The notes beneath the pieces were generated by a model, which was given only the letters and a program-made list of their open reading frames with translations, made no database searches and was not told the DNA's origin. This document shows positions 1 through 19,077 of a stretch of DNA of 64,000 nucleotides, one piece after another (within the stretch, counting starts at the first letter, position 1; every line of letters starts with the position of its first letter). The translations under genes and the position numbers were made by a program. Source of the stretch: Flavitalea plasmicola (lineage in GTDB: Bacteria > Bacteroidota > Bacteroidia > Chitinophagales > Chitinophagaceae). Where the stretch lies: positions 960,956-1,024,955 of the forward strand of contig NZ_JAUOTO010000003.1 of the NCBI RefSeq assembly GCF_030546645.1. Reading direction: 5' to 3'.

Positions 1-1
1 T

Positions 2-1336
2 TCGGCATCTTTACGCGCGGACGGGTCATCCAATGCCCAACCCACCAGCCGGTGGTTCTATTCCCCAGTCGTGGCCGCGGCGTGGAACCTGAAAAATGAG
101 TTCCTCGAAAAGAACAAAGCGCTCGATGATCTCGTTCTCCGCATAAGCGCCGGACGACTGGGACGTCTCCATGCCTACGACAACTTTGCGCAGGGCCCCC
201 AATACACGGCTACTACAGGATATACAGGCAATCTCACCGTACCCGGATACAACGCCTTCAGCGTCCTTACCAGACCGTATTCATTTGGATGGGTGGGCTA
301 TGGCATCCCATGGGGTTATTCTGACCAGGTAAACATAGGAACAGATCTGTCTCTCCTTCGTAATCGTTTGCACGTCTCCCTGGACTGGTATAAAAAGATC
401 GAAAAAGACCTGCTCATCGGTATCCCCGCATTTGCCGAATACGGCTATAAGCAATCCATCGAACCCGGCATGTCCGTCAGCAACACAGGCCTGGATCTTA
501 GCGCCCGGGCGGAAGTCCTCCGGGGAAAGAAAGTTTCCTGGTCCGCAGGCATCAACGTAAACTACAACCGCAATAATCTGAGGTCCCTGCCAAGGGGTTT
601 GAAAGAGATCGTCATTGGCAACCGCCTCCTGCAGGTGGGCCGGCCCGTAGACCAGTATTGGTTATTCGTTAACCAGGGCATCTATACGGCCGACAACCAG
701 GTGCCGGTGGTAAAAGGACTGCCGCTGAAATACAACGGAGTTTCCCTCCGCGCCGGCGATCCCCGATGGAAAGACATGAATGGCGACAACGTTCTCGACA
801 ACAAGGATAAGATCCTGAAAGGACATTCCCTACCCGTCCTTTCCGGAGGAATGGATCACACATTCAAATATGGCCCGTGGAGCTTGTCGCTCGACTTTTA
901 CTATACGCTTGGGAGAAAGATCATGCACCAGGAGATGGCCAATAAATTCGACTTTGTCAATAGGGAAAGCAACCTGAATATGAACTCTGTCAAGGAGATC
1001 ACTTTCTGGGAGGACCGGGGAGACTTCAGCAAATATCCTCTATATAACCCGTGGAGCACCGTCATTCCCTATCGCATCGACCAGGATCTTTTCCTTGAAA
1101 ATGCTTCATTCCTGAAATTGAGATCGCTGGTACTGGGCTATGATCTCAGCAAATACCTGGCGAAGAAAGGCCTTAAGTCGAACAGGTTCTTCGTATACGC
1201 ATCCGTGAATAATGTCTTCACCATAACGCCATACACCGGCGTGGATCCTGAACTCGTGGGGTACGACGGGTACGACGCGGGTTATGGCCAGCCAATACCC
1301 AGGATCTACACGCTCGGCATCAAGACCGAACTATAA
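2..1336 (+). CDS. SusC/RagA-family TonB-dependent outer-membrane porter, 5' truncated
   Basis: The reading frame is already open at base 2, so only the C-terminal 444 residues of a protein normally near 1,000 residues are visible. SusC proteins are 22-strand outer-membrane barrels that import substrate captured by a SusD lid, driven by TonB. Visible family marks are RADGSS at residues 5-10 of the fragment, a GDPRWKDMNGDNVLDNKDK calcium-loop-like stretch near residue 260, and alternating aromatic beta strands ending in a C-terminal strand that closes the barrel. It is followed 35 bp later by a SusD gene, the usual partner order. The plug domain and TonB box lie outside the window. Substrate is unknown; the neighbours contain no hydrolase that would suggest one. 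Confidence 0.93.
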   Translation, partial: SASLRADGSSNAQPTSRWFYSPVVAAAWNLKNEFLEKNKALDDLVLRISAGRLGRLHAYDNFAQGPQYTATTGYTGNLTVPGYNAFSVLTRPYSFGWVGYGIPWGYSDQVNIGTDLSLLRNRLHVSLDWYKKIEKDLLIGIPAFAEYGYKQSIEPGMSVSNTGLDLSARAEVLRGKKVSWSAGINVNYNRNNLRSLPRGLKEIVIGNRLLQVGRPVDQYWLFVNQGIYTADNQVPVVKGLPLKYNGVSLRAGDPRWKDMNGDNVLDNKDKILKGHSLPVLSGGMDHTFKYGPWSLSLDFYYTLGRKIMHQEMANKFDFVNRESNLNMNSVKEITFWEDRGDFSKYPLYNPWSTVIPYRIDQDLFLENASFLKLRSLVLGYDLSKYLAKKGLKSNRFFVYASVNNVFTITPYTGVDPELVGYDGYDAGYGQPIPRIYTLGIKTEL

Positions 1337-1371
1337 AACTAAAGAATTTACATAAACGCAAGGTCATCAAA

Positions 1372-2874
1372 ATGAAAAAATCATTGCTGGCAATCCTGCT
1401 CCTGTTCCCGGCGCTATTCAGCTGTAATAAGGTTTTGGATAAAGATTCCGTACGGGTCGTTGCAGAAAAAAACATGTGGAATACCCTGGAAGATGCACGC
1501 GCAGGGCTCATGGGCGTCTATGCCCTTACCCGTGCAGCGCTTTCCGACAACAACGGGCACTGGATCTACGGCGACGTCAGATCGGGGCAGTTCTACAGCC
1601 CCCAGCGCCAGGACCTGAAAGCCGTTATCGACAATCACCTGAATGCGGCCTATCCTGTGGTGGAGGCCTTATCCGACTGGACGAGGTTCTACGCCATCGT
1701 CAATGCGGCCTGTCTCTTCATCGAACGGGTAGGTAATGTCAAGGCTAACGACAAACGGTATTCGACCAATAATATGACGGTGGATCTGGCGCAGGCAAGG
1801 CTCTTACGGGCATTCGCCTACTTCTATATGGTAAGGATCTGGGGTGATGTGCCCTTTATCATCACCTCTCACGACGGCCAGTTCGAGAACAAACCCCGCG
1901 AAGAACAGGCGAAAATATTGAGCTGGGTGGAGGTAGAGCTGCTCGCGGCGGCGCAGGACCTGCCATTCGGCTACAGTAGGGGCGACATTCAGCAGCCAGG
2001 GAATTACTACAACGAAGATGCCACCCGGTGGGGCGGCGCCCTGGCGACAAAGATCTCCGCCTATGCGATCCTGTCGCATGTAGCGGCCTGGATGGGCAAC
2101 TATTCCAATGTGGCAAAATATACCAAGTTTGTCGAAGACAATTACAGCCGCAGCAACTGCAGCTTTCAATCCACGTCGGACCTGACGAATTCCAACGGGT
2201 TCTTCTATAACAAGAATTCCAGCCAGATGCTGGGATTCAATTCGGACTATGGGCATATAGAAGGCTCATCCACCGGTCACCTGGAAGAGCTCACCCTCGC
2301 CCAACCCGTGATCAACAAAGCCGTTCCCGATATCTATCTGCCGAAGGATACTATCATACGCCTCTTCGATCAGCCCAATGATGAACGGTTCAACCTGGAC
2401 ACGGTGGGCACGCCGGGCTCCGACCGCTACTTCACGAACTTCAACGGCAAATACCCCATATTCAGCAAGATCAAGGTAATGGAAGGCGGCATCATCGATC
2501 CCAACTTCCGGTACTTCACCAGCGCGCTGATCTTTACCCGGCTGGAAGACATCGTCCTGCTGCGCGCAGAAGCTATGGCCGTGCTGGGCGATGTCTCCGG
2601 CGCCCTCAATGAAGTAGCCATCGTCATGTCCAATCGGGGCATCACGACGATTAGTACAACGAATAAAGAGTTGATCGACCTCATCTTCGAAGAGCGCAAC
2701 CGGGAACTGCTGGGAGAAGGACATCGTTGGTATGACCTGGTACGCTACAACAGGATCAAGCAAAACAACCCGGCCTTCACCGGGCTCATCAATTCCGGAG
2801 GAATTTACTGGCCTGTATCCCGCAAGCTCATCGGCCAGAACAGTTTATTAATTCAAAATCCTTACTGGCAATAA
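1372..2874 (+). CDS. SusD/RagB-family surface lipoprotein (pairs with upstream SusC)
   Basis: A 500-residue SusD-like protein, the normal length. The N-terminus is a lipoprotein signal with Cys at residue 18 (ALFSC) followed by Asn-Lys. The body has the helical TPR-like pattern of the family, including an ARLLRAFAYFYMVRIWGDVP segment near residue 142, and a C-terminal GEGHRWYDLVRYNRIKQ segment typical of RagB/SusD. SusD proteins sit on the cell surface as a hinged lid over the SusC barrel and bind the substrate. The gene lies 35 bp after the truncated SusC and 20 bp before the next lipoprotein, so one transcript is likely. The ligand cannot be read from the sequence. Confidence 0.95.
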   Translation: MKKSLLAILLLFPALFSCNKVLDKDSVRVVAEKNMWNTLEDARAGLMGVYALTRAALSDNNGHWIYGDVRSGQFYSPQRQDLKAVIDNHLNAAYPVVEALSDWTRFYAIVNAACLFIERVGNVKANDKRYSTNNMTVDLAQARLLRAFAYFYMVRIWGDVPFIITSHDGQFENKPREEQAKILSWVEVELLAAAQDLPFGYSRGDIQQPGNYYNEDATRWGGALATKISAYAILSHVAAWMGNYSNVAKYTKFVEDNYSRSNCSFQSTSDLTNSNGFFYNKNSSQMLGFNSDYGHIEGSSTGHLEELTLAQPVINKAVPDIYLPKDTIIRLFDQPNDERFNLDTVGTPGSDRYFTNFNGKYPIFSKIKVMEGGIIDPNFRYFTSALIFTRLEDIVLLRAEAMAVLGDVSGALNEVAIVMSNRGITTISTTNKELIDLIFEERNRELLGEGHRWYDLVRYNRIKQNNPAFTGLINSGGIYWPVSRKLIGQNSLLIQNPYWQ

Positions 2875-2894
2875 GGGACCCCAATCTGAAAAAT

Positions 2895-3995
2895 ATGACA
2901 ACGTATATGCGAGCCATAACATTTTTGCTTATCCTGTCCTTCGCGCTGCCTGCCTGTAAGAAGGATGGCGGCTATCACAACTCCCCCGACGCGGATAAGA
3001 AAATCCCTATGAACACGTACGACTATCTGAAAAGCAAGGTCGGCGTATTCGACTCCCTCGTGGCGGTGATCGACAGGCTGGGATTGAAGGAGACATTGAC
3101 GGACAGCAGCATTACGCTCTTCGCCGTCACCAATCAAAGCTTTCAGCTGGCGGTGACGAACCTGAACCGCTTGAGGAAACAATCCGACAAAGACCCGCAA
3201 TACCTGTCCTTCATCGACCGCGAGCAGCTGGATACCATGGTGTGCTACTACATCATTCGGGGTAAATACCTCTCTGATTCACTGCAATTGCAGGATGGTC
3301 TAGACCTCTTCAGCGTACGGTTCGGCTATCCCATGCATGCCAAAAGCACACGGGCTTCCGCATCGGGATTTGAAAAGGGCGGTCCGGAAGTGATCGACTT
3401 CAGCAATACGAAGAGAAGCAAATTCGTCAGATTCTGGTCCAGCACCACCACCGGATCGAATAATATCGAGACGACCAATGGCGTCGTTCATGTGGTAACG
3501 CCCGACCATATCTTCGGTTTTGACGAGTTCGTGTTGCGTCTCACCTTCGTTCCCCCGCCTCCCGACCTGATGACGCTCATCGGCGGCAAGCTCAGCGTAT
3601 TGCGGGACAACAACGGTGGGCCTGATAATGGCGAAGGTTCGAAGAAGGTCATCGACGGTGATGACCACACCAAGTTCCTTTGCGAGTTCCAGGGCCATGT
3701 ATGGATGAAGTTCGAACTGAACCAACCGGCGGTGTCCTCCGTGTATACCCTCACCTCGGCCAATGACGCGCCGGATCGTGATCCCCGCGCCTGGACATTC
3801 GAAGGATCGAATGACGACGTCAACTGGGATGAACTGGACAGAAGATTCAATTTCTTCTTCGAACAGCGCTATCAGCTGAAGGTTTTCACCTTCCCCAACA
3901 CCCAGGCGTATAAATTTTACAGGATCAATATTTCAGAGGTCAACGGGTCGAACCTTTACCAGCAGGCCGAATGGACCATCAATTCAACAAAATAA
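2895..3995 (+). CDS. Fasciclin (FAS1) lipoprotein with C-terminal discoidin-like domain
   Basis: 366 residues. Lipoprotein signal with Cys21 (ALPACKKD). Residues about 41-210 form a FAS1 domain: the first conserved block is SSITLFAVTNQSF and the second is TNGVVHVVTPDHIF. Residues about 228-366 form an F5/8 type C (discoidin)-like beta-sandwich with IDGDDHTKF and WTFEGSNDDVNWDEL, the usual ligand-loop and substitute-for-galactose-binding layout. FAS1 domains mediate adhesion and discoidin domains bind glycans or proteins, so this is probably an accessory surface binder for the porter pair. An in-frame Met at codon 5 is an alternative start. The same C-terminal module is found in the last gene of the operon (15350). 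No catalytic motif is seen. Confidence 0.85.
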   Translation: MTTYMRAITFLLILSFALPACKKDGGYHNSPDADKKIPMNTYDYLKSKVGVFDSLVAVIDRLGLKETLTDSSITLFAVTNQSFQLAVTNLNRLRKQSDKDPQYLSFIDREQLDTMVCYYIIRGKYLSDSLQLQDGLDLFSVRFGYPMHAKSTRASASGFEKGGPEVIDFSNTKRSKFVRFWSSTTTGSNNIETTNGVVHVVTPDHIFGFDEFVLRLTFVPPPPDLMTLIGGKLSVLRDNNGGPDNGEGSKKVIDGDDHTKFLCEFQGHVWMKFELNQPAVSSVYTLTSANDAPDRDPRAWTFEGSNDDVNWDELDRRFNFFFEQRYQLKVFTFPNTQAYKFYRINISEVNGSNLYQQAEWTINSTK

Positions 3996-3996
3996 A

Positions 3997-5091
3997 GTGA
4001 CCATGCAACGCGTCATAAAAAAAGTAACTATTCTCTTTCTGCTGACCGGAATGATCTCCGTCGGCTGCAAAAAATTATACGACCTGCCCGGGGAGAAGGA
4101 CTATCTCAGCTCCAATGTCAATTTTTCCAATAAGACCTTCGAACCCATCCTGGGGAGGACCACCGTCATGGGCGGCTTTAATTCGGACCATAGCACGGAG
4201 CCCCTGAAATTCGAGATCGTCAATGCACGGTTTGGAGACGGACGGCCAATGTCCGACCTCTTCACCGAAGCCGAGACCTATGTGTGGACGGGCACCTATA
4301 CAGGCTTGGAGAAAAGCCTGGATGAGATTGAAGCCAAACGGAAAAAGGAAAAGCACCCCCTCTTTGAGATCCGGCATTCGGGGGAATTCATCATGTGGAG
4401 CGCCTCCACCAATGAACTGATCCCACCCCGTGCGGCTGACAGCACCAATTTCCCGCAGAATACCCGGTATTTCGACCTGAAGGTCAGTAACACGGGCGGT
4501 GAAATGCTGATAAAAGATTTCCAGGTCCGCCCCTGGCGCGAGCGGCCCTATGAACCTTCCAACGACATGAACATCTATACGGGCGGCATAGCACCCAATC
4601 CCAAAGATCCAACCAATCCTGCGGACAGGGATTATATCAGGCCTTTCGTCAATGGGGTGTTGTCCACCCCTTCCGAGAGATACATGGTGAGCAACGACGA
4701 CCGGAAAGATATCGTGGCCTTTATCCGTCCGTTCACGGGTGGAAATGGACACAACTTACGGATCAAGGTGCTGGACAAGGATTCCCTTCCCATCAACCCC
4801 TCCGCTTTCAACGAGACGAAATGGAAGGAGATGATCCATGGGTTCAATATGCAGATAACGAACGAGTATGTCCAGTACGACGTCGCCTATCCGATACCGC
4901 TGGTGGAGGTTCCCACTTCCTATGCTCCTGGCGGAACGAGGGCGCATGCGGAACTGAGATATTCCAGGATCGGGTTCGGCGGATTGAGAGTGACATCGGC
5001 CTTCGGACTGGACTTCGCGATCTACAGGCCCGGGGACTGGGAGATCGTATTCCTTTTCAGGATGGAAAATCCAAAATTTGAAAATGACTAA
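3997..5091 (+). CDS. DUF5007-like lipoprotein of Sus-type operon
   Basis: 364 residues from a GTG codon one base after the preceding stop; an ATG two codons later (4003) is an equally good start. The N-terminus is a lipoprotein signal with Cys24 (SVGCKK). The rest is beta-rich with no catalytic motif I can recognise. From memory it resembles the DUF5007 family, which accompanies FAS1 lipoproteins and SusC/SusD genes in Sphingobacteriia and Chitinophagia; a Pfam search would settle this. The one-base spacing to the gene before and 19 bp to the following SusC argue for co-transcription. Role unknown; by position a surface-exposed accessory of one of the two porters. Confidence 0.75.
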   Translation: MTMQRVIKKVTILFLLTGMISVGCKKLYDLPGEKDYLSSNVNFSNKTFEPILGRTTVMGGFNSDHSTEPLKFEIVNARFGDGRPMSDLFTEAETYVWTGTYTGLEKSLDEIEAKRKKEKHPLFEIRHSGEFIMWSASTNELIPPRAADSTNFPQNTRYFDLKVSNTGGEMLIKDFQVRPWRERPYEPSNDMNIYTGGIAPNPKDPTNPADRDYIRPFVNGVLSTPSERYMVSNDDRKDIVAFIRPFTGGNGHNLRIKVLDKDSLPINPSAFNETKWKEMIHGFNMQITNEYVQYDVAYPIPLVEVPTSYAPGGTRAHAELRYSRIGFGGLRVTSAFGLDFAIYRPGDWEIVFLFRMENPKFEND

Positions 5092-5110
5092 CTGCTAATA
5101 ATCGAATACA

Positions 5111-8100
5111 ATGAAATTACGTTTATACATTCTGCTCTTGCTGACCGGCAGCCTCTTTCCTTCCTGGTTCCTGCTCGCGCAAGCTCCTCCCGCTACGGTC
5201 ACGGTCCGGGGTATGGTGGTGAACAAGACCTCCAACGCTCCGTTGCAGAGCGTCACCATTGCCAATGAAAAGACAGGCAAAGGAGTGGGCATGTCGGATG
5301 CAGAAGGGCGCTTTGAGATCAGGGTGCCTGCCAACGCCTCCCTTGTCTTCAGCTCGGTGGGCCTCGCCACCAAAAAAGTGAAGCTGGAGCCGGGCCAGAC
5401 AAATATAAAAGTGGCCATGGAAACAAATAACCGGTCGATGGATGACGCGATCATTGTCGCCTATCAGAGAAGGACGAAGGAGACGACGACCGGGGCCGTC
5501 AATGTCGTCATGGGAAAAGAGGTACAGGACGTGCCTGTCTCCAATGTGGAGCAGCTGCTGCAGGGTAAAGTGCCCGGTCTGAATATTCAGAACAACACAG
5601 GAGCACCTGGTTTCAGGGGCTCGGTGCAGATGCGGGGACTTTCCAACCTCAGCATTTCAGGCAGCGGCAGCGAATCCTTCCTTCAACCTACATCACCCCT
5701 GTATATCATCGACGGCGTACCCATCGATGCCGACAAGGCGTCAGACTATGGGTTCCAGACCCAGGGACCCGGCATCAGCCCGCTGTCATTGATACCTCCG
5801 GAAGATATCGAATCCATCCAGGTACTCAAAGATGCGCAGGCTACCTCCATGTATGGATCGAGGGGCGCCTACGGCGTTATCATCATCACTACCAGAAGAG
5901 GAAATTCCAAGGTTCCCCGTGTCAGGTATACCGCCAATTATTTTATGACCACTCCCCCCAAGCTCCGCGAGACATTGGGCGGCAATGCCGAACGCCAGCT
6001 GAAGATCGGCCAGATCATCAGCAATGCCCGCAACTACGACGACATCACGCGGATCAACCGAACGGCCTTTCTGGCGGACAGCCTGAACCCTTATTGGAAC
6101 AATTCCACCAACTGGCAGGCCGTCTTCTACCGGACTACCTATAACCAGACGCATAACCTCGCCCTGGACGGCGGCAATACCAAATTCAACTACAAGACGA
6201 ACCTGGGGTATTACACCGAAAAAGGCGTTATCAAGAACACAGGTTTTGACAGGTATAACCTGAATATGAACATGGAGTTCAAGCCCAGTGACAAATTCAG
6301 GGTCTTCAGCTCCCTCTTCGGATCACTGGGTATGCAGGGTAAAGGCAATGGACTGGGGATCCTTCAGCAAGGCGTAGCTGACAACGGAACGGCCTCCACA
6401 CTGCTACCCCCACCCTCCTATTATCAATCTTCCGGCGCCGTGGTGTCGGCCCTGAAAACGAAAAATGACAACAACTCGAGGAACTTGCGGGCAAATGTAG
6501 ATATGCGTTATGAACCATTCCTCGGTGTGGCATTCTCATCCAGCCTTAGCTATGACAATACTTCGGAGACGGAATCCACTTTTACGCCCGCTGCGGCCAA
6601 TAGCCAGTTCGCCCGGGTCTACGATTTCACCGGCAAGAACTTTACGTTGTACAACCGAAACAACTTCACCTATTTCAAAACGATAGCGAGAGATCATACT
6701 ATTTTTGTCAACGCTTTCAACGAGATCTATAAACAAGGCGCCCAATCCCGTATCACCAGACAGGAAAGGACCCCTAACGACCAGGTGCAGGGCCCCATCG
6801 GCTTCGACGCCTATTTTTCACGGGGCGGCGGGGTGCTGGCGAACTTTAAGAACGCCACTATCGCCTCCTTTGCCGGCTCCATTTCCTACGATTATCAAAA
6901 AAGGTTCATAGCGGAATTCTCTTACAGACTGGATGGCACGTCTTCCAATGGATTGGAAAATCTTTATTCCAAGAATCCTTCAGTCGGACTGCGATGGAAC
7001 TTCAGCAAAGAAAAGTGGCTGAAGGATCTTATCTGGCTCTCCTACGGCGCCCTGCGGTTGACCTGGGGACAAAATATCGTGCCGACGGGAAATCTTCAGA
7101 GCATCTATGGCCTCTATAACCTGAACGGCAATTTCAACAACAATCCCACGATCGGGATCAACTACGACCAGATACCCAACCCTTTCCTGAAGCCGACCAC
7201 CACCACGCAGTATAACTTCGGTTTCGAAACGGGTCTTTTCAACGATAAGTTTGTCATCAACTTCGACGCCTACTTCAAGAAAGTGGACAACCTGCTCTTC
7301 GACCGGAATCTTGCCACGAATACAGGCTTTGGCAAGTTGGCCAGCAACGATGCGGGCATCGCCAACTACGGGTATGAGCTGATGGTGACGGCCAGACCCA
7401 TCGTAAGAAAATATTTCACCTGGACAGTGTCTGTCAATGGCGCCATCAACCGGGATGTCCTGCTGAAGCTGCCGGCGGAATACAACGGCCAGTATATCAG
7501 AACTGACAACAGCCCCTACCGGCAGCACACCGTATTTCGCGTAGGACGGAATACGTTGTCCAATTATCTCATCCGGAACATGGGCGTATTCAGCAAAGAT
7601 GAAGATGTGCCCGTAGATCCGGCGACGGGTAAGCGATACCAGACCAATGGTACGGCGTTCAAGGCAGGTGACCCCTATTTCAAGGATGTCAACGGGGATT
7701 ATATCCTGGATGACAAAGACTATGAGGTGGGCGGCAATTCTCAGCCCCTGGTGACAGGCGGCATCTCCACGAATTTGACCTATAAGAATTTCGGATTGAA
7801 TGTCTACGCCACCTTCACCGCCAAGCGCACCATCCTGAACAATGCCCTCTCCGACCGCATGTCCATTACAAGGGATCCCTTCGATCTGCGGGCGGTGGTA
7901 CCTCTGAGCGAACTCGACATCTGGCGCAAGCCGGGGGATCATGCAAGGTATCCCAATCCCTACGACTATGGAAGGTTTAACCAGATCCAGCCCCTTCGGC
8001 CCGACCAGACCCTTTGGGCCGAGGATGGCAGCTACCTGAAAATAAACAATGTCATTGTATCCTATATGTTCAATAGGGCACTCGTCAGGAAGATCGGCTT

Positions 8101-8269
8101 CAACAGCGCCAGGATCTACTTTAGCACGGAGAACCTCGTCACCTTTTCAGGTTACTCGGGCCCGAACCCGGAGAATGTCACCACCCTGGGCAGGGATGTG
8201 TCCAGCGGATATGCCGTCCCCCGTAAATACAACCTCGGTATAAACATAGAACTCAATACTGGCAATTAA
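5111..8269 (+). CDS. SusC/RagA-family TonB-dependent outer-membrane porter
   Basis: A complete 1,052-residue porter. Signal peptide of about 23 residues ends LLA with Gln24 as the predicted first mature residue. Residues about 29-112 are a carboxypeptidase-regulatory-like beta sandwich, the usual N-terminal extension of SusC. The plug follows to about residue 275, with VLKDAQATSMYGSRGAYGVI, a strongly conserved SusC segment, and PLYIIDGVPID. The remainder is the 22-strand barrel; FKAGDPYFKDVNGDYILDDK near residue 850 is the typical late loop. There is no STN domain, so unlike the porter at 28606 it should not signal to a FecR protein. It is the second SusC of the operon and is followed 9 bp later by its own SusD. 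Confidence 0.96.
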   Translation: MKLRLYILLLLTGSLFPSWFLLAQAPPATVTVRGMVVNKTSNAPLQSVTIANEKTGKGVGMSDAEGRFEIRVPANASLVFSSVGLATKKVKLEPGQTNIKVAMETNNRSMDDAIIVAYQRRTKETTTGAVNVVMGKEVQDVPVSNVEQLLQGKVPGLNIQNNTGAPGFRGSVQMRGLSNLSISGSGSESFLQPTSPLYIIDGVPIDADKASDYGFQTQGPGISPLSLIPPEDIESIQVLKDAQATSMYGSRGAYGVIIITTRRGNSKVPRVRYTANYFMTTPPKLRETLGGNAERQLKIGQIISNARNYDDITRINRTAFLADSLNPYWNNSTNWQAVFYRTTYNQTHNLALDGGNTKFNYKTNLGYYTEKGVIKNTGFDRYNLNMNMEFKPSDKFRVFSSLFGSLGMQGKGNGLGILQQGVADNGTASTLLPPPSYYQSSGAVVSALKTKNDNNSRNLRANVDMRYEPFLGVAFSSSLSYDNTSETESTFTPAAANSQFARVYDFTGKNFTLYNRNNFTYFKTIARDHTIFVNAFNEIYKQGAQSRITRQERTPNDQVQGPIGFDAYFSRGGGVLANFKNATIASFAGSISYDYQKRFIAEFSYRLDGTSSNGLENLYSKNPSVGLRWNFSKEKWLKDLIWLSYGALRLTWGQNIVPTGNLQSIYGLYNLNGNFNNNPTIGINYDQIPNPFLKPTTTTQYNFGFETGLFNDKFVINFDAYFKKVDNLLFDRNLATNTGFGKLASNDAGIANYGYELMVTARPIVRKYFTWTVSVNGAINRDVLLKLPAEYNGQYIRTDNSPYRQHTVFRVGRNTLSNYLIRNMGVFSKDEDVPVDPATGKRYQTNGTAFKAGDPYFKDVNGDYILDDKDYEVGGNSQPLVTGGISTNLTYKNFGLNVYATFTAKRTILNNALSDRMSITRDPFDLRAVVPLSELDIWRKPGDHARYPNPYDYGRFNQIQPLRPDQTLWAEDGSYLKINNVIVSYMFNRALVRKIGFNSARIYFSTENLVTFSGYSGPNPENVTTLGRDVSSGYAVPRKYNLGINIELNTGN

Positions 8270-8278
8270 ACCCACTTC

Positions 8279-9805
8279 ATGATGAAAAAGACCATCTGCT
8301 ATATCATATTGCTGCTAGCCGGCCTCGCCGGCCCCGGCTGTAAGAAATTCCTGGATATTCAGCCCATCGATAAGCTATCGGGTAATAACTTCTATCAATC
8401 GAAGGAAGATGTGGTCGCCAATATCTATGATCTGTCAAGGAAATTGTTCAACAAGGTCAACGAAACCCACTTCATCGGCGCGACAGGTGAATACCGGTCA
8501 GGCGAAGTATTGTCGGAAGCGCAATCGGACAATGGTCCCGCACGGGCATATGTCGAGGTCTTGGGAAGGAATGACCTGCTCACCTTGTTGAGCGGCAACC
8601 AGCCTTGGAATTTTTACAATTTTTCAAATATCACCGAGTGGAAGGAATATTATCAGGTGATACAAGGTGCCAATATCCTGCTCAGCAAGCTGGAAAAAGG
8701 CATACCGGGTGTCTCCGAAACGGAAAAGAAACAATTCGAAGGTGAGGCGGCATTTGCCCGGTCGATGGCCTATTTTTTCATGGTACGTCTGTACGGAGAC
8801 GTTCCCTATTTCACCGATGCTTTTCATTCGACGGCGTTGCCCAGGGAAAAGATGGTAACGGTGCTAAATAACTGCATTGCTGACCTGACAAAGTATAAGG
8901 ATAACCTTCCCTGGAGCTATTCCGACCCTGCCCTGAAAGGGGTGCGGGCCAGCAGGGGCAGCATCATCGCATTGCTGATGAATATGAACATGTGGAATGC
9001 GGGGTTTGACAAGAGCAAGGCCGAGCACTATTACGAGGAGACGGCCGCCCTGGGAAATGAGCTGGTGAGTAGCGGCGCCTACCGGCTCCTGCCGCTCAAC
9101 GAATGGTCGACCGTGATAAAAGGGAGGTCCGATGAAAGTCTTTTTGAATTTTATCGCAGTGTCAATTACAATGACGACAACAGCGCCATAGCACCCATCT
9201 CCGATATGTTCGTTCACTATCCTTATAAAAGACCGGAATACACGCACCGGGTGAGCTTTGCTTTCTTCAGGGCTGAATATATGCAGAAGCTTTATCTGGG
9301 CAGTGCCGACAGAAGGGCCACCGTCTGGTTTGACGATAATATCTATGCGGACAATGGAAAATTCATGATGCTCAAGTTTGCGCAAAATTCCTTCATTACG
9401 GGAGACGAGGATAAGAATCCCGACAATACTTTCATGATCTTCCGGTATGCCGGGGAGATCCTCTTATGTGCCGAAGCCCTGGCAGAGCTGGGACGGGACG
9501 ACGAAGCCATCAAGCTGGTGAACATGGTGCGTGACAGGGCCGAAGCAGGACACTACACAGGCGGCGGCGGCGCGGATCTGAAAGATTTTATCTTTTTGGA
9601 GCGTTCGCGTGAGCTCATGGGCGAAGGCCACCATTATTTCGACATGGTTCGCACGCGCCGGATCCTCAGCAGCACCTGGTCCTACAATGTGCTCACCCTG
9701 GATAAATTCAACAGGGGCGCCTGGACCTGGCCCATCAGCAGGAGCGCCCTGGACAACAATCCCTATATGACACTGAATGATTACTGGACCAACGGAGGCA
9801 ACTAA
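8279..9805 (+). CDS. SusD/RagB-family surface lipoprotein (pairs with SusC at 5111)
   Basis: 508 residues, typical SusD length. Starts ATGATGAAAAAG, so either of two adjacent Met codons may be used. Lipoprotein signal with the lipidated Cys in GPGCKKFLDIQP, a very common SusD N-terminus. FARSMAYFFMVRLYGDVPYF near residue 160 and ERSRELMGEGHHYFDMVRTR near the C-terminus are family hallmarks. It should cap the porter encoded 9 bp upstream. There are therefore two complete SusC/SusD pairs in one operon, each followed by a fasciclin-domain lipoprotein, which suggests either duplication of a three-gene block or two related ligands. Confidence 0.95.
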   Translation: MMKKTICYIILLLAGLAGPGCKKFLDIQPIDKLSGNNFYQSKEDVVANIYDLSRKLFNKVNETHFIGATGEYRSGEVLSEAQSDNGPARAYVEVLGRNDLLTLLSGNQPWNFYNFSNITEWKEYYQVIQGANILLSKLEKGIPGVSETEKKQFEGEAAFARSMAYFFMVRLYGDVPYFTDAFHSTALPREKMVTVLNNCIADLTKYKDNLPWSYSDPALKGVRASRGSIIALLMNMNMWNAGFDKSKAEHYYEETAALGNELVSSGAYRLLPLNEWSTVIKGRSDESLFEFYRSVNYNDDNSAIAPISDMFVHYPYKRPEYTHRVSFAFFRAEYMQKLYLGSADRRATVWFDDNIYADNGKFMMLKFAQNSFITGDEDKNPDNTFMIFRYAGEILLCAEALAELGRDDEAIKLVNMVRDRAEAGHYTGGGGADLKDFIFLERSRELMGEGHHYFDMVRTRRILSSTWSYNVLTLDKFNRGAWTWPISRSALDNNPYMTLNDYWTNGGN

Positions 9806-9828
9806 TTACCACATTCCATCAATCAACT

Positions 9829-10542
9829 ATGATAAAAAATACCATTGCGATCTGCGGCCTCGTCCTGCTGGCATTCACCGCCTGCAAACGCGACAAATAT
9901 TATAAGGACGGCGGTCTTGCCCAGGCAAATTTTCCGGGCACGATGCTGGATTACCTGGATGCGCATCCCGCCCCTTTCGACACCATTGCCCAGGTGGTGA
10001 GACTGGCCGGGCTTACCGATATGTTCAACAAAGAAGATATCACTTTCTTCGCGCCGGACGACCAGGTGATCAACCGGACCATCGGCACCATCTATACCGG
10101 CGGGCTGAACAGCTTTTTGTATAGACGGGGCAGAGATACCGTCCGGGACATATCCGAGATCGATTCTTCCATCTGGCGGAAGTATCTCCTGCAGTATATT
10201 TTCAAGGGCGCCAACAGGCTGAAAGACTACCCCCAGATAGATTTCAGTCTGGTGAATATCTATCCCGGCGGCTTGTATTATACCCTGGGCGGGAACGTGA
10301 TGAACATCGGGGTTACGTTTGCCGATGCCAATGGTATCAAATACCTCGGCTATCGGCAGCTGGTGCTGAGCTATATTCCGGATATTTCCAACCCGGACTA
10401 TGACTGGAGAAGTTTTTCTGTTTCCTCGTCAGATATTAAACCAAAGAACGGGGTCGTGCATGCCCTACTGACTGACGGCCTGTACCTGGGCTATGACCCC
10501 AATATTTTTTTCACCGAAGTATATAATGCCGGACTAAAATGA
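9829..10542 (+). CDS. Fasciclin (FAS1) domain lipoprotein
   Basis: 237 residues. Lipoprotein signal with Cys19 (FTACKRD). A single FAS1 domain occupies about residues 38-225: block 1 is EDITFFAPDDQVI, and the C-terminal block NGVVHALLTDGLYLGY contains the conserved Gly-Val-Val-His. It matches the N-terminal half of the lipoprotein at 2895 but lacks the discoidin-like tail. Its stop codon overlaps the next start (ATGA), so the two are probably translationally coupled. FAS1 domains are adhesion modules, and no enzymatic residues are visible. Likely a surface accessory of the second SusC/SusD pair. Confidence 0.85.
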   Translation: MIKNTIAICGLVLLAFTACKRDKYYKDGGLAQANFPGTMLDYLDAHPAPFDTIAQVVRLAGLTDMFNKEDITFFAPDDQVINRTIGTIYTGGLNSFLYRRGRDTVRDISEIDSSIWRKYLLQYIFKGANRLKDYPQIDFSLVNIYPGGLYYTLGGNVMNIGVTFADANGIKYLGYRQLVLSYIPDISNPDYDWRSFSVSSSDIKPKNGVVHALLTDGLYLGYDPNIFFTEVYNAGLK

Positions 10543-12149
10543 AAGCATTTACGTATTTTTTGATCATTGCCGCAACGATGCTTGCCGTACAAAGCTGTAA
10601 GAAGACCGATACCGTGTACAAAGATCCTTATGCCAACGCCAAGCCCCCATTAGGCATAAAGCTGGATCGCGATGCTCCTCCCGTACCTGCCAGCGGAATA
10701 GCGGGCACCACGGTGCATTTTCAGGCTACGGGCCTTGTCGCTTACAAGGATAAGCTCTCCTTTCTTTTCAACGGAGAGAAGGCGGAGATCGTGGGTATTA
10801 CGGAATCCGGCATCGATGTGAAGGTGCCGGCCGCCGCCAGCAGCGGGATAACCTCCATCAACGTCGATGACCAGCTGGTGCTCGGTCCGCCATTCTCCGT
10901 GCTGGGTTTAATAAAGATCGACCCCACTTTCCGCGCACAGGCGGGCGCCAACGATTTTGTCACGGAGGTTTACCCGCTGACAGATGGAAGGAATATTGTC
11001 ATAGGGTTCTTCACCAATTACGATAACAAGGGATACGTCGCCCCCCTGAACAGGATCGTCCGGACATCCGCCGACGGCGACCTGGACCGCACCTTCCGGA
11101 CCGGGAAAGCGGCCAACGGCGGATTAGCCAGCATCATCGAACTGGGAGGCAAATTTGTCATTGCCGGCGGCTTCAGCGGATATGACCAGCGCACCGAGAA
11201 TATCAGCAATATCACCACTCTAAACGCCAACGGTACCATCGATACCATGGGGGTGAAGACCTATCGCCGGCCTTCACAAACGGACACCACCATGTATTTC
11301 CCCAAATTCAACGGCGGGACAAATGACTTTATCAGCCGTCTGTATGTCCATCAAAATAAAATACTCGCGACGGGCAATTTCAGGTACTATGTGAAAAGGA
11401 CATATACCGAGCCGAATTACACGTTTACGAAAGATACCGTGATACTGGATAGCACTGAGATGCGCCAGATCCTTCGTTTCAACCCGGATGGGTCACTGGA
11501 CAGCAGCTTCCGGTTTAACCAGGCGACAGGAAAGGGCTTTCCGGCTGCCAACGGGCCCATCGGCTCCTTTATGCATAATGAGCCGGAAAAACTGGAAAAG
11601 CTGGTGATCTTCGGCAACTTTACCACCTTCGACCAACAACCGGCCGGCCGCATCGTTAGGCTGAACCCCGACGGCACCATCGACAATACCTTTACGCCAG
11701 GCCCAGGCGCAGACAATTCCATCAATAACCTCACTTACAACACCGTCACCAAAAAATACCTCATCACCGGCGATTTCCGGCACTATGCAGGCAAGGCGGC
11801 CCCGGGGATCGCGCTGCTGAACGAGGACGGCACACTGGATGAAAGCTTCATAGGGAAGGAATTCGAAGGCGGCTTTGTGGGTATTGCCCGGCAGCTGAAC
11901 GACGGGCTCATTGTCGTTAGCGGCAGGTTCAAGAAATACAATAACGTTACCCGCAACGGCTTCATGGTGCTGACGGCGACAGGGAATTTTGCATCGGGAT
12001 ACAATGCCACGGGTACCTTTTCCGGTAGCTTGTCAGATATCATCGAAACCCATTCCGCCGACGGGAAAAGAGCGCTGTTGCTGATAGGTTCCATTGACAG
12101 ATTTGATAATCAACCGGTGAGCAATATCATAAGGGTAACCCTGGAATAA
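10539..12149 (+). CDS. Lipoprotein with IPT/TIG-like domain and delta-60 repeats (DUF5008-like)
   Basis: 536 residues, start overlapping the preceding stop by 4 bp. Lipoprotein signal with Cys20 (AVQSCKKTD). Residues about 40-125 look like an Ig-like IPT/TIG sandwich, in the position I associate with DUF5008. From about residue 140 to the C-terminus there are roughly five delta-60-type beta-propeller repeats, recognised by units such as RLNPDGTIDNTFTPG, LLNEDGTLDESF and RFNPDGSLDSSFRFN, each preceded by a GxFxxY strand. This suggests an N-terminal stalk carrying a propeller that binds ligand at the cell surface. No active-site pattern is evident. The family name is from memory. Confidence 0.75.
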   Translation: MKAFTYFLIIAATMLAVQSCKKTDTVYKDPYANAKPPLGIKLDRDAPPVPASGIAGTTVHFQATGLVAYKDKLSFLFNGEKAEIVGITESGIDVKVPAAASSGITSINVDDQLVLGPPFSVLGLIKIDPTFRAQAGANDFVTEVYPLTDGRNIVIGFFTNYDNKGYVAPLNRIVRTSADGDLDRTFRTGKAANGGLASIIELGGKFVIAGGFSGYDQRTENISNITTLNANGTIDTMGVKTYRRPSQTDTTMYFPKFNGGTNDFISRLYVHQNKILATGNFRYYVKRTYTEPNYTFTKDTVILDSTEMRQILRFNPDGSLDSSFRFNQATGKGFPAANGPIGSFMHNEPEKLEKLVIFGNFTTFDQQPAGRIVRLNPDGTIDNTFTPGPGADNSINNLTYNTVTKKYLITGDFRHYAGKAAPGIALLNEDGTLDESFIGKEFEGGFVGIARQLNDGLIVVSGRFKKYNNVTRNGFMVLTATGNFASGYNATGTFSGSLSDIIETHSADGKRALLLIGSIDRFDNQPVSNIIRVTLE

Positions 12150-12190
12150 ACGCCAGCAAAATTAATTATTCAACGAATTAACTGACCAGC

Positions 12191-13882
12191 ATGAAAAAAT
12201 ACCTGTCTCTATTTCATCTGACCCTGTTTGTGGTGGTTACGGCAATAGTATCCTGCAACAAGAAGTTCACCAGGATGTTGCCGGACACAAAGTATACAGA
12301 CACGGTCACCGTCTCTTACGGGCAGCGAAAGGTGCTCTATCTGATCGTGGATGGAGCAAGAGGAACCTCTGTCAACGCGTCCAATACACCCCACATCAAG
12401 ACGTTGTTATCTCATTCCATCTATAGCTGGGTGGCAGTGAATGATCCGGAAGCTACCTCCATCGCCAACAATTGGGCGGACTTGCTGACGGGTGTGAAAA
12501 AGGAAAAGCACAAGGTGGTGGATATGTCATTCGACAATACAAATCTTCAAAACTATCCGGTCCTCTTCCGTCGGATAAAAGAAAGCAACCCTGCCATCAG
12601 TATCGCGGCTTTCACCTCTTCCGCCGACTTTGCCAACCATCTCACCACAGACGCGGATAAAATGAAGCTCCTGAACACGGATGAGGAAACCCGTACGGCT
12701 GTTGTAGAGAACCTGAAGACCGACACAGCCTCTCTGGTTGTCGGGCATTTTACAGATGTCGACAAAGCCGGCGCTCAATCCGGCTATGACACGTCTTTTC
12801 CGGCATATAAAGCTGCCATCGAAAAATTCGATGGCTATGTGGGTGACATCATGACCGCCCTGGGCCAGCGACCGAACTTCGAAAGGGAGGACTGGCTGGT
12901 CGTCATCGCCTCCAGCGGCGGCGGGCCGTTTACCATTCCACCCAATCAAAATGACAATACCATATTCAGTAACCCCGCGGCCAATGCTTTTATCCTTTAT
13001 TACAATCCTAATTACAAGCCCAGGATCATCGTCAAGCCATTCACGGGGAACAGGTACATCGGCAAAACCATCCGGCTGAAAGGCGATGCCGTCACGGCCC
13101 AGATCGATGATGCCGGCGATTATAACATCGACGACACGACAAACTTCACCATAGAGCTCAAGATCAAAAAGAATGAGGAAGCGTTCTTCTGGCCCAGCGT
13201 CCTGGGCAAACGAAATGAATGGTCCGCCGGACATCCCAGCGTCGGGTGGGTGATCTATCTCGAGAACCATTATTGGTACCTGGAATGGCGTGGCACGAAA
13301 GACGGTGATTACCACCAGGTACGGGGCGCCGACCTCAAGAAGGACAAATGGGAGAATATTTCCGTCAAATGTGAAACTCGTGCTGGCAGAAGGTTTATAC
13401 GTACCTATACCAATGGCGCATTTAATAACGAGGGAGAGATCACCGCTTCAGGGAGCTTGAGCAACAACAATGCCTTAAAGCTGGGTTTTTTAAACGGCAA
13501 TGGCCACGGGACCCCCGATGTATATATCACCGATGTCCGGTTTTTTAAATTTACACTCCCCGACGCGACGATCGACCGGTATGCCTGCGAGACTTCCATT
13601 GACCAAAGCCATCCATATTTCAATTTTCTGGCCGGATACTGGCCTGCGACGGATGGACAAGGGACGCTCATAAAGGATTACGGGCCGCTGGAGCACGATT
13701 TTCAAATGCAGGGAACTTACCCCTGGGAAAGCTTCAACGACCTGATCTGTCCGCCTTCTGACCTCAGCCTGGCAGAACTGGTACCCCAAACGACGGATAT
13801 ACCCGCTCAGATCATCACCTGGTTTAAAATTGCCAGCAAGCAAAGCTGGGATCTCGATGGAAGGGTCTGGCTGGACCAATAA
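12191..13882 (+). CDS. Phosphatase-superfamily-like and LamG-domain lipoprotein (DUF4983-like), probable pseudoenzyme
   Basis: 563 residues. Lipoprotein signal with Cys22 (IVSCNKK). Residues about 45-275 resemble the alkaline phosphatase/nucleotide pyrophosphatase fold: LYLIVDGARG carries Asp54 at the first metal ligand, PEATSIANNWADLLTGV lies where the Thr nucleophile is, and DVDKAGAQSGY where a second Asp...His pair lies. However, the hallmark Asp-His-Gly after the core strand is replaced by Ser-Gly-Gly (VVIASSGGG, residues 237-245), and the expected His after Gly194 is missing. Residues about 285-470 are a LamG/concanavalin-like sandwich. The C-terminal segment matches my memory of DUF4983. 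Catalysis therefore looks unlikely; a ligand-binding scaffold is more plausible. Spaced 41 bp and 9 bp from its neighbours. Confidence 0.72.
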   Translation: MKKYLSLFHLTLFVVVTAIVSCNKKFTRMLPDTKYTDTVTVSYGQRKVLYLIVDGARGTSVNASNTPHIKTLLSHSIYSWVAVNDPEATSIANNWADLLTGVKKEKHKVVDMSFDNTNLQNYPVLFRRIKESNPAISIAAFTSSADFANHLTTDADKMKLLNTDEETRTAVVENLKTDTASLVVGHFTDVDKAGAQSGYDTSFPAYKAAIEKFDGYVGDIMTALGQRPNFEREDWLVVIASSGGGPFTIPPNQNDNTIFSNPAANAFILYYNPNYKPRIIVKPFTGNRYIGKTIRLKGDAVTAQIDDAGDYNIDDTTNFTIELKIKKNEEAFFWPSVLGKRNEWSAGHPSVGWVIYLENHYWYLEWRGTKDGDYHQVRGADLKKDKWENISVKCETRAGRRFIRTYTNGAFNNEGEITASGSLSNNNALKLGFLNGNGHGTPDVYITDVRFFKFTLPDATIDRYACETSIDQSHPYFNFLAGYWPATDGQGTLIKDYGPLEHDFQMQGTYPWESFNDLICPPSDLSLAELVPQTTDIPAQIITWFKIASKQSWDLDGRVWLDQ

Positions 13883-13891
13883 CTGAAAATA

Positions 13892-15328
13892 ATGAAAACA
13901 TTCAATTACTTCGATATGGAAAAAATTGGCTGCTTTTGCATATGCCTCCTCTTACTGACGACGGGCTGCAAGAAAAAAGACGTGCAGGACCTGGCATCCA
14001 TTACCTCGGAACCAAGGATCGTCTCTGCGCAAAACATCGTGGCGGGCGAGATCACGAAAGACAATTCCTTCGTTACTGTGCCCTTCCATATCAAACTTTC
14101 CGGTCCGGCAGGCAAGGCTTTCCAGGTCGCGGTAGACGTGAACTATGACACTGTGGCCCAGCTGATCGCCAGTGGCGCCTTGCAGAACACGGTTGCGGCA
14201 GCTTCCAGCGCTGTCGTTCTTCCCAATGTCATCAATGTGTCCTATGGGACAGATAGCGCCACGGGCATCGCTACGGTAAAGCTTTCTGAAGTGGAGGCCA
14301 ACTACGGAAAGAACGTGGCCTTTATGATCCGGCTGATGAATCCCGGCAAAGGCAACAAGATCGACCCGGCGAAATCCACTTGCCTGGTAGTGATCAATTC
14401 CACGGATCTGATGAGCGCCGACGATCTTCACACTTTGTCCATTTCCAATGGCGGCGGCGGTATCTTACACGTGGACTTTCAGCAAAATTATGTCAGTAAT
14501 TCCGGCGGTATCACCATTCCGCTGATCATCAGCCTGGCCAACCAGGCCAGCGCCGCCTTCAATGTAAAAATAAAGCTCAATACCGACACGATCGACAAAC
14601 TCATCGCCTCCAATGTGCTCCCGGCGAACACAGTCCAGCTGACGGCTGCCGAATTTTCCATTGACACCATCGTGAGAATGGGCACCGGCCTAAACTCTGC
14701 CATCGTCAACCTGGCCATTCCCTGGTCCGTATTCGACGCCAACATCACCGCGAACAATTATTTCGCGTTCTATGTAAGCCTGGCGGAACCGACCCGCCAC
14801 ATCCTGCACCCGACAAAAAGTAGCGTCATCGTCCTGGTGAGCCCTTCCGTCAATCTCGACAACAATTCCTACATCACGGGCAATGGCACAGGACTAAAAG
14901 CCGAGTACTTCTCCAACAATCAGTTCCTTGACTTTGACGGAAGGGCGCCCGATATCGTCCGGATAGACCCCACCATCGATTTCCAGGACCACTGGAAGGG
15001 CTCTGCCATCAGTGTTGAGAACAGCTCCGCACGGTGGACAGGCGAGTTCCTGGCCCCGGTACGAGGCCAGTACACTTTCTACCAGACCCGCTGGGACGAC
15101 GGCTGCCGGCTCCTGATCGACGGTAATGCCATCATAGACGATTTCACCGTGGAATGGGATAAGCCTACGAGAAAGGCGACGATAACGCTGGAAAGAGGCC
15201 AGCGCTATAAGATAGAGGCGCAACATCGTCAAAACTATGGCGGTGAGCAGGCGCACCTGGAATATGAAGTGCTGAACCTGATATCCAGGCGTATCGTTCC
15301 TAAGTCTCAATTATTCCCGGCCCCATAA
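13892..15328 (+). CDS. DUF1735-type lipoprotein with C-terminal PA14 domain
   Basis: 478 residues; an internal Met at codon 9 (13916) is an alternative start that leaves a cleaner lipoprotein signal ending TTGCKKKD. Residues about 45-170 and 185-310 are two copies of a beta-sandwich with the pattern VDVNYDTVAQLIASG...SKVEL-like and IKLNTDTIDKLIASNVLP, which I recognise as DUF1735 (BT_3987-like N-terminal) domains common in SusD-linked lipoproteins. Residues about 330-478 form a PA14 domain: GLKAEYFSNNQF, QYTFYQTRWDDGCRLLIDGN and the closing beta strand. PA14 domains bind carbohydrates or related ligands. Likely a multi-domain surface binder. No hydrolase domain is fused. Confidence 0.82.
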   Translation: MKTFNYFDMEKIGCFCICLLLLTTGCKKKDVQDLASITSEPRIVSAQNIVAGEITKDNSFVTVPFHIKLSGPAGKAFQVAVDVNYDTVAQLIASGALQNTVAAASSAVVLPNVINVSYGTDSATGIATVKLSEVEANYGKNVAFMIRLMNPGKGNKIDPAKSTCLVVINSTDLMSADDLHTLSISNGGGGILHVDFQQNYVSNSGGITIPLIISLANQASAAFNVKIKLNTDTIDKLIASNVLPANTVQLTAAEFSIDTIVRMGTGLNSAIVNLAIPWSVFDANITANNYFAFYVSLAEPTRHILHPTKSSVIVLVSPSVNLDNNSYITGNGTGLKAEYFSNNQFLDFDGRAPDIVRIDPTIDFQDHWKGSAISVENSSARWTGEFLAPVRGQYTFYQTRWDDGCRLLIDGNAIIDDFTVEWDKPTRKATITLERGQRYKIEAQHRQNYGGEQAHLEYEVLNLISRRIVPKSQLFPAP

Positions 15329-15349
15329 ATGCAGCAACCAGCAAATAAA

Positions 15350-16162
15350 ATGACCATGCAAAAGCTTTTTAATCTCTTGTTTATACTGAGTCTGTTCGTG
15401 CAATGCAAAAAAGAAACTAAGAAGGCGCCGCCTGTGGTAGAAGAACCCAAGCCTACCGCGGCCTTCACCTACACTTTACCCGACAGCGCCAAATTCCTGG
15501 TCTATCAGTTCTCCAGCTCATCGACCAATTATAAGCAGCTGCTCTGGCAGTTCGGGGATGACAGCAGCTCCACGGAAGTGGCGCCGCTGCATTCCTACCG
15601 GTTTCCCGGCGCGTACCATGTCATACTGAATACGACCAACTCCCAGGGTTACTGGGCTACTAAAGAGATCCTGCTGAATGTAGTGGACCCTAACTTCGAT
15701 CCCACCAAGGTCGGGGAGAACTATATTAAGACCATTGGCGGAACCCTTTCCGTTTCGCGTGACAATGGGGGCGGCCCTACGGCAAATGAAGGATCTTTAC
15801 GGGTGATAGATGAGGACGACGCGACTAAATTCTTCCAATCCGGCTTTGCAGGGGACCTATGGATCAAATTCGAGTTCAATAGCCCTGTGGTTGCAGGCGC
15901 CTACACCATGACCTCCGGCAACGACGCCTGGGACCGCGATCCTAAATCCTGGTCTTTGCAGGGGTCGACGGATGATATCAAATGGATCACCTTGCACACC
16001 ATCAATAGGACACAATGGGGGGCCAACGAACGGAAGAAGAAGATCCTTTATTTCTTCGATAATAATGAGGAGTATAAATTCTACCGGCTGAGCATCAAAG
16101 CCAATAATGGCAGCCGTGATTTTCAGCTAAGCGACTGGACGGTCAATAAGAAGCAGCCCTAA
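15350..16162 (+). CDS. PKD-domain lipoprotein with C-terminal discoidin-like domain
   Basis: The frame is open from an ATG at 15329, immediately after the preceding stop, but the lipoprotein signal starts properly at the ATG at 15350 (or 15356). This gives about 270 residues, with the lipidated Cys in LFVQCKKE. A PKD domain follows (LLWQFGDDSSSTEVAPLHSY, then FPGAYHVILNTTNSQG). The last 140 residues repeat the discoidin-like module of the lipoprotein at 2895: both have IGGxLSVxRDNxGGP, VIDxDDxTKF, DRDPxxWxxxGSxDDxxW and YKFYRxxI. It is the last gene of the import operon; the next gene is 150 bp away. Likely a surface adhesin-like accessory. Confidence 0.82.
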   Translation: MTMQKLFNLLFILSLFVQCKKETKKAPPVVEEPKPTAAFTYTLPDSAKFLVYQFSSSSTNYKQLLWQFGDDSSSTEVAPLHSYRFPGAYHVILNTTNSQGYWATKEILLNVVDPNFDPTKVGENYIKTIGGTLSVSRDNGGGPTANEGSLRVIDEDDATKFFQSGFAGDLWIKFEFNSPVVAGAYTMTSGNDAWDRDPKSWSLQGSTDDIKWITLHTINRTQWGANERKKKILYFFDNNEEYKFYRLSIKANNGSRDFQLSDWTVNKKQP

Positions 16163-16311
16163 GGTTTGTTAGTTTTTAGCCTTCCCAAATTCATAATATA
16201 CTTTATTGCCTTCAATAACATATCGCTTACAGCTGTCTTTGCTCCCTGTTATTTTGGTTATAGAACGAAAATACGGCTATAATTCATAAATTAGTATCTG
16301 ATAAACCTTAT

Positions 16312-17196: not shown

Positions 17197-17206
17197 GGAC
17201 AGGCTT

Positions 17207-18976: not shown

Positions 18977-19062
18977 ACGAATAGTTTCTTCACGGATAAA
19001 ATTAGGGCAATCTGCCTTTTCCGGCGTCCTGTTCAATCCTGCCTCGTTACCTTATTTCTTAA

Positions 19063-19070: not shown

Positions 19071-19077
19071 CGACACT

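Follow-up and report, generated by a model that had tools for sequence, protein, structure and literature searches.

The described system closest to the locus considered here, an operon of eleven genes at positions 2-16162 of a 64,000-nucleotide stretch of Flavitalea plasmicola DNA (the window; G000:C13:960956-1024955, from a source genome of 8.73 Mb in 19 contigs), is BT0262-90 (PUL5), a polysaccharide utilisation locus (PUL) of Bacteroides thetaiotaomicron. Arabinogalactan is listed as its primary substrate (PMC3243724, Table 2), the test substrate being larch arabinogalactan (Table 1 of the same paper). Its gene BT0268 is termed an arabinogalactan PUL gene (PMC5061871) and supplies an arabinogalactan-responsive promoter (PMC6874557). 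The annotation given in PMC10434189 describes BT0269-75 as SusD, hypothetical, DUF5007, SusD and DUF5124, and BT0277-79 as carbohydrate-binding, alkaline phosphatase family and hypothetical proteins; in the literature searched, BT0270, BT0272, BT0274, BT0276, BT0278 and BT0279 are named in two papers and BT0277 in none of the 13 listed. Four M60-like proteins, three of them with the zinc motif, are counted in this species by PMC3267712 (2012).

On balance, and with limited confidence, we favour reading the Flavitalea operon as the enzyme-free uptake and binding core of a locus family to which the Bacteroides arabinogalactan PUL very likely belongs, its most likely ligand being an O-glycosylated glycoprotein of the arabinogalactan-protein type. 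A reading of the window made from sequence only, without database searches, had named no assigned substrate for related gene sets in other Sphingobacteriia and Chitinophagia, and stated that a known substrate for an orthologous locus would refute it; such a substrate can now be named, through a distant homologue only. An operon that is widespread among environmental Bacteroidota and has been an orphan is thereby tied to a gut locus whose substrate is known, and ligand tests can be designed. The literature searched, most subscription journals being outside it, contains no functional study of the accessory proteins, no mention of DUF4983 or DUF5008 (only of DUF5007) and, by title and abstract, no such operon combining fasciclin with SusD or DUF5007.

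The nine-gene core and its likely Bacteroides counterpart

Relatives of the operon were found with a profile of five DUF5007 proteins; the 80 named loci are the best of 174 relatives, a sample weighted towards close relatives. Of these 80 loci, 78 have exactly the order SusC1-SusD1-FAS1-DUF5007-SusC2-SusD2-FAS1-DUF5008-PDE, where PDE is a phosphodiesterase-like gene. As for the two exceptions, L077 ends at a contig edge and L080 has no called PDE open reading frame (ORF) between DUF5008 and PA14. Because the nine-gene order is exact in 78 of 80 loci, the arrangement is more than chance. Counting the window's own genome and weak matches, DUF5007 occurs in 5 of 198 genomes from the window's order and in 5 of 395 from its phylum. 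It is present in 75 of 201 genomes of the Sphingobacterium family (at E up to 1e-40 in 66; the family, f23, is taken as Sphingobacteriaceae since its genome G199 and the named Sphingobacterium sp. CZ-2, G801, share identical match coordinates), and in one of 201 of a second family (f31), which is probably Bacteroidaceae. The 47 genomes behind the loci have one to six matches each, 82 in all.

The connection to B. thetaiotaomicron runs through two genomes, G657 and G771, of a single f31 genus in which 3 of 18 genomes have DUF5007. Both display the core order of the window together with an adjacent hybrid two-component system (HTCS) regulator, an M60-fold protein and a second PDE, and beyond the regulator lie GH43 genes. 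G657 has its HTCS in two ORFs, and in G771 no ORF is called for the first FAS1 protein. Their layout is that annotated for BT0268-BT0279. The core gene order of the window thus appears to match that of an arabinogalactan PUL of the BT0262-90 type via G657 and G771, in which the full order is seen, the likeness of B. thetaiotaomicron itself (SusD pair, DUF5007, alkaline phosphatase family protein) being taken from published annotation only. Unlike these two loci, the window has PA14 and PKD-discoidin genes in place of the M60-fold protein and the second PDE, and neither an adjacent HTCS nor a linked hydrolase.

Structural matches point the same way. SusD1 of the window (1372..2874, +) and SusD1 of G657 are both closest to 3hdx, at 460 and 575 bits, while the closest structure to SusD2 (8279..9805, +) is a different one, 3iv0 (321 bits). 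Both entries we take to be structural-genomics targets from B. thetaiotaomicron, 3iv0 with less certainty. One f31 GH43 protein has 6euf, presumably BT0265, as its best match in the PDB (715 bits), with galactan 1,3-beta-galactosidases further down the list, which suggests that it is of the GH43_24 type. The GH43_24 subfamily holds exo-beta-1,3-galactanases (PMC8406133), and 3hdx appears in a table of the Joint Center for Structural Genomics (PMC3069752). The M60-fold proteins of both f31 copies are without HEXXH, and their Pfam match does not extend past the first third of the M60 profile; a fourth, motif-less M60 protein of B. thetaiotaomicron would fit a dead M60 in this locus.

In the favoured reading, the two SusCD pairs would form two TonB-driven importers, and the FAS1, discoidin, DUF5007, DUF5008-propeller, pseudo-phosphodiesterase/DUF4983, PA14 and PKD lipoproteins would build a surface layer that gathers a large glycosylated ligand. 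Cleavage would be left to other organisms or to enzymes whose genes lie outside the operon, and the SusD lids would hand the fragments to the porters, of which each may serve its own product class, for example glycopeptides and free oligosaccharides. Surface exposure, binding and import by these products are, like the class of the ligand, what we infer from gene content. Contact between the FAS1 lipoproteins and the FAS1 domains that fasciclin-like arabinogalactan proteins carry in plants is conjectural.

A degenerate phosphodiesterase and a peptidase-bearing sister form

The ninth gene (12191..13882, +) encodes a lipoprotein composed of a domain of the alkaline-phosphatase superfamily fold (PF01663, E 8e-10) followed by DUF4983 (PF16356, E 2e-8). 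The sequence-only reading, which took all accessory parts for adhesion or binding modules, had missed this phosphodiesterase fold. Its N-terminal part reaches 39.2 bits; the two G771 homologues, at 20.1 and 20.8 bits, miss the cut-off of 23. A profile built from 20 sequences matches the nucleotide pyrophosphatase/phosphodiesterase (NPP) structures 7mw8 and 2gsn. Six active-site positions were surveyed in 91 distinct sequences of the first PDE and 18 of the second, the last metal-binding His of NPPs lying outside the survey. The first metal-ligand Asp is kept in 89/91 and 18/18, respectively. Thr or Ser stands at the nucleophile position, where the alignment is gapped, in 9/91 and 2/18. The Asp of the DxxGH motif is retained in 37/91 and 0/18 and its His in 1/91 and 0/18, while the Asp of the SDHG motif persists in 1/91 and 0/18 and its His in 5/91 and 16/18. 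The window protein keeps two of the six positions; the maximum is four, in L090, which is without the first Asp, and no other sequence exceeds three.

The window protein therefore resembles NPPs in its N-terminal fold and in the first metal-ligand Asp, and differs from them in having lost the nucleophile position and, of the four further metal-ligand positions examined, all but one; the Thr/Ser nucleophile and the set of Asp/His metal ligands of an active PF01663 enzyme are not found in it. The domain is very probably dead and is best read as a pseudoenzyme, and these losses make an active phosphodiesterase acting on a phosphoglycan or a glycosylphosphatidylinositol anchor unlikely. They speak for a dead enzyme, not for binding by this protein; as the fold is kept and most catalytic residues are lost, the domain may act as a binding domain. 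A degenerate phosphodiesterase is thus a regular component of an uptake system. In the DUF4983 region, the profile matches jelly-roll chains in the PDB, such as the receptor-binding part of tetanus toxin and pentraxins, which is taken as remote similarity of a probably lectin-like fold and implies no toxin. The LamG module proposed earlier is not called in this protein, Laminin_G_3 being called in a distant homologue.

Downstream flanks of up to 20 kb were compared for 40 operon copies hand-chosen from the 82, half of them window-like. Among the 20 window-like copies, all except L130 have PA14 after the PDE gene (19 of 20), and the next gene is PKD-F5/8-like in 16 and FAS1-F5/8-like in three, again 19 of 20 (all but L136); BLAST finds no M60 gene in these 20 flanks. 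In 16 of the 20 other copies, which represent a sister form, the PDE gene is followed by an M60 peptidase gene and then by a second, also degenerate PDE; the four without the peptidase are L149, L153, L154 and L156. HEXXH is intact, with a conserved Glu further on, in 18 of 18 M60 sequences from these 16 loci (a further L147 copy was left out). Pfam confirms the M60 assignment in L085, and five more of the 80 loci have a member of the same protein cluster. These M60-type twin SusCD loci, from Pedobacter, Mucilaginibacter, Niabella, Flavisolibacter and relatives (L078, L079, L081, L083, L085, L087), share the first nine genes with the window in the same order. They differ in gene 10, the M60 peptidase (HEXXH where examined) instead of PA14, in the second degenerate PDE and in forming a separate clade of the SusC2 tree.

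Since an M60 peptidase lies within the operon of 16 of 20 sister copies, with HEXXH in all 18 sequences, a glycoprotein ligand gains support and is favoured. The earlier proposal that a ligand other than a plain polysaccharide fits better is strengthened for a glycoprotein, and has no specific evidence for its other part, recognition of a partner cell. The sister form also makes the choice between polysaccharide and glycoprotein testable with purified SusD proteins. A bolder version, put forward tentatively, sees here a receptor-only importer of glycoproteins: enzyme folds (the PDE throughout, M60 in the copies of probable Bacteroidaceae) would have been turned into lectin-like surface parts, and the operon would have switched between protease-bearing and protease-free forms.

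The peptidase could also suit a peptide importer of the RagAB type, whose SusCD pairs would take oligopeptides or glycopeptides, carbohydrate being incidental. RagAB shares the SusCD architecture, and RagA structures are among the weak relatives of G657 SusC1; these matches (62 bits and less) rank below those to other SusC homologues (up to 95 bits), so that RagAB is a weak sequence relative only, and it is not known to have twin porters. Genes for GH2, GH27, GH29, PL8 and NHL proteins lie beside M60-type copies, each in a few loci, and the GH2, GH27 and GH29 genes speak against a diet of peptides. The arabinogalactan response reported for BT0268 (PMC6874557, PMC5061871) does so too, and this explanation is, in our view, improbable.

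Plain polysaccharide, adhesion and the evidence on the ligand

In the strict sense, a PUL includes a co-located carbohydrate-active enzyme and an adjacent substrate sensor. Pfam detects no intact enzyme domain in genes 1-11, and no HTCS or similar sensor is present among the scanned upstream or the immediate downstream genes. The locus may nevertheless serve ordinary polysaccharide utilisation with unlinked hydrolases, the ligand being a plain plant or fungal polysaccharide and the odd lipoproteins surface glycan-binding proteins. Varied carbohydrate enzymes near window-like copies would suit this, as would the larch arabinogalactan on which B. thetaiotaomicron was tested (PMC3243724). GtaA-type six-hairpin proteins lie beside six of the 20 window-like copies and GH92 beside two. 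In L136 (Pedobacter hiemivivus, L136:13821-18026), the place of the PKD-discoidin gene is taken by a GH2-type gene, which begins 3 bp behind PA14 and does look co-transcribed with the operon. A plain polysaccharide accounts poorly for the recurrence, in 78 of the 80 loci, of twin porters with the same non-hydrolase lipoproteins, and for a peptidase inside the sister-form operon; we regard it as rather unlikely. No enzyme outside the operon is constant among the copies examined. The in-line GH2-type gene of the single copy L136 does speak against the sequence-only reading.

In six Pedobacter loci (L120-L124, L132), the GtaA-type gene is on the same strand, about 70-890 bp behind the operon, with PF16335, PF17168 and PF16334 in the two that were scanned. 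A GH92 cluster is located upstream of the operon in five Sphingobacterium loci, of which one member was scanned.

These flanking carbohydrate enzymes also count against an enzyme-free core devoted to a glycoprotein, and several other observations add to them. The nine core proteins of the window and G657 are 23-42% identical. BT0275 is labelled DUF5124, not DUF5008 (PMC10434189). Deletion of the HTCS gene BT0267 still left growth at 78.9% of wild type, and BT3674-87 is entered as a second arabinogalactan PUL (both PMC3243724, Table 2). One table gives the substrate of BT0273 and BT0270 as 'Unknown' (PMC13088901). No M60 match exists in the host genome, where an M60 glycopeptidase locus would show one, and the best GH43_24-type galactanase match there, 25 bits over about 100 residues, is not convincing. 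With no M60 and this lone match, classical arabinogalactan breakdown is not evident in the host, and arabinogalactan as a proven substrate in Flavitalea is rejected. A BLAST search with the f31 GH43_24-type protein finds no such gene in the 20 window-like downstream flanks.

At the level of whole genomes, some GH43_24-type match occurs in 35 of the 47 operon-bearing relatives, in 24 at E up to 1e-30. The favoured reading receives some support from f23, where a GH43_24-type gene is present in 36 of 66 operon bearers and in 41 of the 135 genomes without the operon (Fisher p 0.0012, odds ratio 2.75), an association uncorrected for relatedness or genome size; the 30 of 66 bearers without such a gene belong on the opposite side of the balance.

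An adhesion or partner-recognition island, in which the porters would serve as signal receptors and the cell would be anchored, to some surface or to a different organism, through its FAS1, discoidin, PA14 and PKD lipoproteins, deserves little credence, even though every accessory fold that can be named is a binding module or a degenerate enzyme. Homologous loci adjoin HTCS regulators and GH43 genes, and the likely B. thetaiotaomicron counterpart is described as a nutrient locus (PMC3243724). Furthermore, the Pfam scan detects the STN signalling domain in neither SusC of the operon.

Anatomy, ancestry and surroundings of the operon

The ORF list agrees with the layout described earlier, eleven plus-strand genes, ten complete and one cut by the window edge, with gaps of 0-41 bp and one 4-bp overlap (35, 20, 1, 19, 9, 23, -4, 41, 9 and 0 bp between genes 1 to 11). 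Pfam and NCBIfam bear out the two SusC/SusD pairs, each followed by a FAS1 lipoprotein. The 3' part of SusC1 occupies 1..1336, its ATG being at G000:C13:959325 (L003:3326), 1.6 kb before base 1; the full 988-residue porter has a plug domain and scores 423 bits against TIGR04056 (cut-off 368). SusC2 (5111..8269), with CarbopepD_reg_2 (PF13715) and plug (PF07715) domains, scores 656 bits and also exceeds this cut-off. SusD1 matches PF07980 and PF14322, and SusD2 matches PF07980 at E 2e-25, both above the PF07980 cut-off; adjacent SusC and SusD genes thus define a SusCD-type uptake locus. The nine products other than SusC have lipoprotein-like signal sequences with a Cys at about residue 18-26, as judged by eye from the N-termini.

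Among the accessory genes, all on the plus strand, the first FAS1 lipoprotein (2895..3995; PF02469, E 1e-8) carries an F5/8-type C (discoidin) match (PF00754, E 3e-6) of 27.7 bits, slightly under the Pfam cut-off of 28.2. The second (9829..10542; PF02469, E 1.6e-4) passes at 22.3 bits against 22. The DUF5007 lipoprotein (3997..5091; PF16398, E 4e-63) begins with GTG, and its family profile has no related solved structure up to E 0.1. At 10539..12149, DUF5008 (PF16400, E 2e-15) is combined with a DUF5122/delta-60 beta-propeller (PF17164, E 9e-32). Gene 10 is a PA14 lipoprotein (13892..15328; PF07691, E 1e-14), and the last gene joins PKD (PF18911, E 3e-9) to F5/8-type C (PF00754, E 1e-5, under the cut-off; 15329..16162). 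The DUF5007, DUF5008, DUF4983, PKD, PA14 and delta-60 labels of the sequence-only reading hold and both discoidin labels stay slightly below threshold; its DUF1735-like label for 13892-15328 finds no Pfam support up to E 0.01, the matches there being PA14, GLEYA, Lectin_like and DUF4973.

The closest relative (L011/L117, 82-84% DNA identity), from a metagenome-assembled genome of Chitinophagaceae, aligns with the window from about 280 bp before SusC1 to base 16161 and has no similarity to it beyond. Because the similarity ends there, the operon is a discrete unit, and the two genes that follow in the window are outside it. Of these, the dienelactone hydrolase gene at 16312 is separated by a gap of about 150 bp and has no counterpart behind the L011 operon. 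The other, for a GH99-like protein (17207-19036, -), lies convergently on the opposite strand, reaches 24.5 bits against a Pfam cut-off of 33 and has no solved relative up to E 0.01. A promoter and terminator scan of 15900-19200 gave counts not above those of shuffled sequence, and the TTTG/TAnnTTTG promoter pattern has no match upstream of SusC1.

In a SusC2 tree of 43 hand-chosen rows, rooted at the midpoint, the window and L011 form a pair (support 100/100), which five Pedobacter and six Mucilaginibacter rows join in a clade of the same support. This clade is nested among Sphingobacteriaceae rows, the Chitinophaga copies branching elsewhere, and the M60-type and f31 copies make up a separate 100/100 group of seven. 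Such a placement of the window copy is consistent with the operon having been acquired as a whole from Sphingobacteriaceae. GC content at third codon positions (0.63-0.70 in the ten operon genes; mean 0.61, sd 0.04, in 28 other ORFs) is not used as evidence of transfer.

Upstream of SusC1, 476 bp without an ORF of 80 residues are followed by a divergent 155-residue ORF with no Pfam match and a MacB/FtsX permease. Farther upstream are found a BD-FAE-like esterase, a glyoxalase-type gene, a cNMP-binding gene, an M81 family protein and two MutS-like genes, and an ABC system and a further SusCD pair lie about 11-17 kb from the operon. The nearest upstream enzymes are thus of the glyoxalase, BD-FAE esterase and M81 types, the esterase being separated from SusC1 by the permease and the divergent gene. 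Among the scanned genes of L002 and L003, no hydrolase belongs to the same transcription unit upstream of SusC1. The earlier statement that the operon has no hydrolase stands for active hydrolases, and the hydrolase or lyase just upstream of base 1 that it named as its own refutation was not found. In L011 the MutS-like genes directly precede the operon; the roughly 7.5 kb between them in Flavitalea (L002:10464-18045; M81, cNMP-binding, glyoxalase-type, esterase, permease) are absent.

Elsewhere in the window, a further SusC (STN, CarboxypepD and plug domains) and SusD-like_2 pair is encoded at 27079-32163 (-), and a PQQ (pyrroloquinoline quinone)-dependent dehydrogenase with a cytochrome c domain at 37198-39489 (-) adjoins a MacB/FtsX permease. 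Finally, 59724-62426 (+) encodes a GH127 beta-L-arabinofuranosidase-like protein (PF07944, E 4e-66). Members of GH127 act on arabinosides of plant hydroxyproline-rich glycoproteins; at 43 kb from the operon, the gene is only suggestive.

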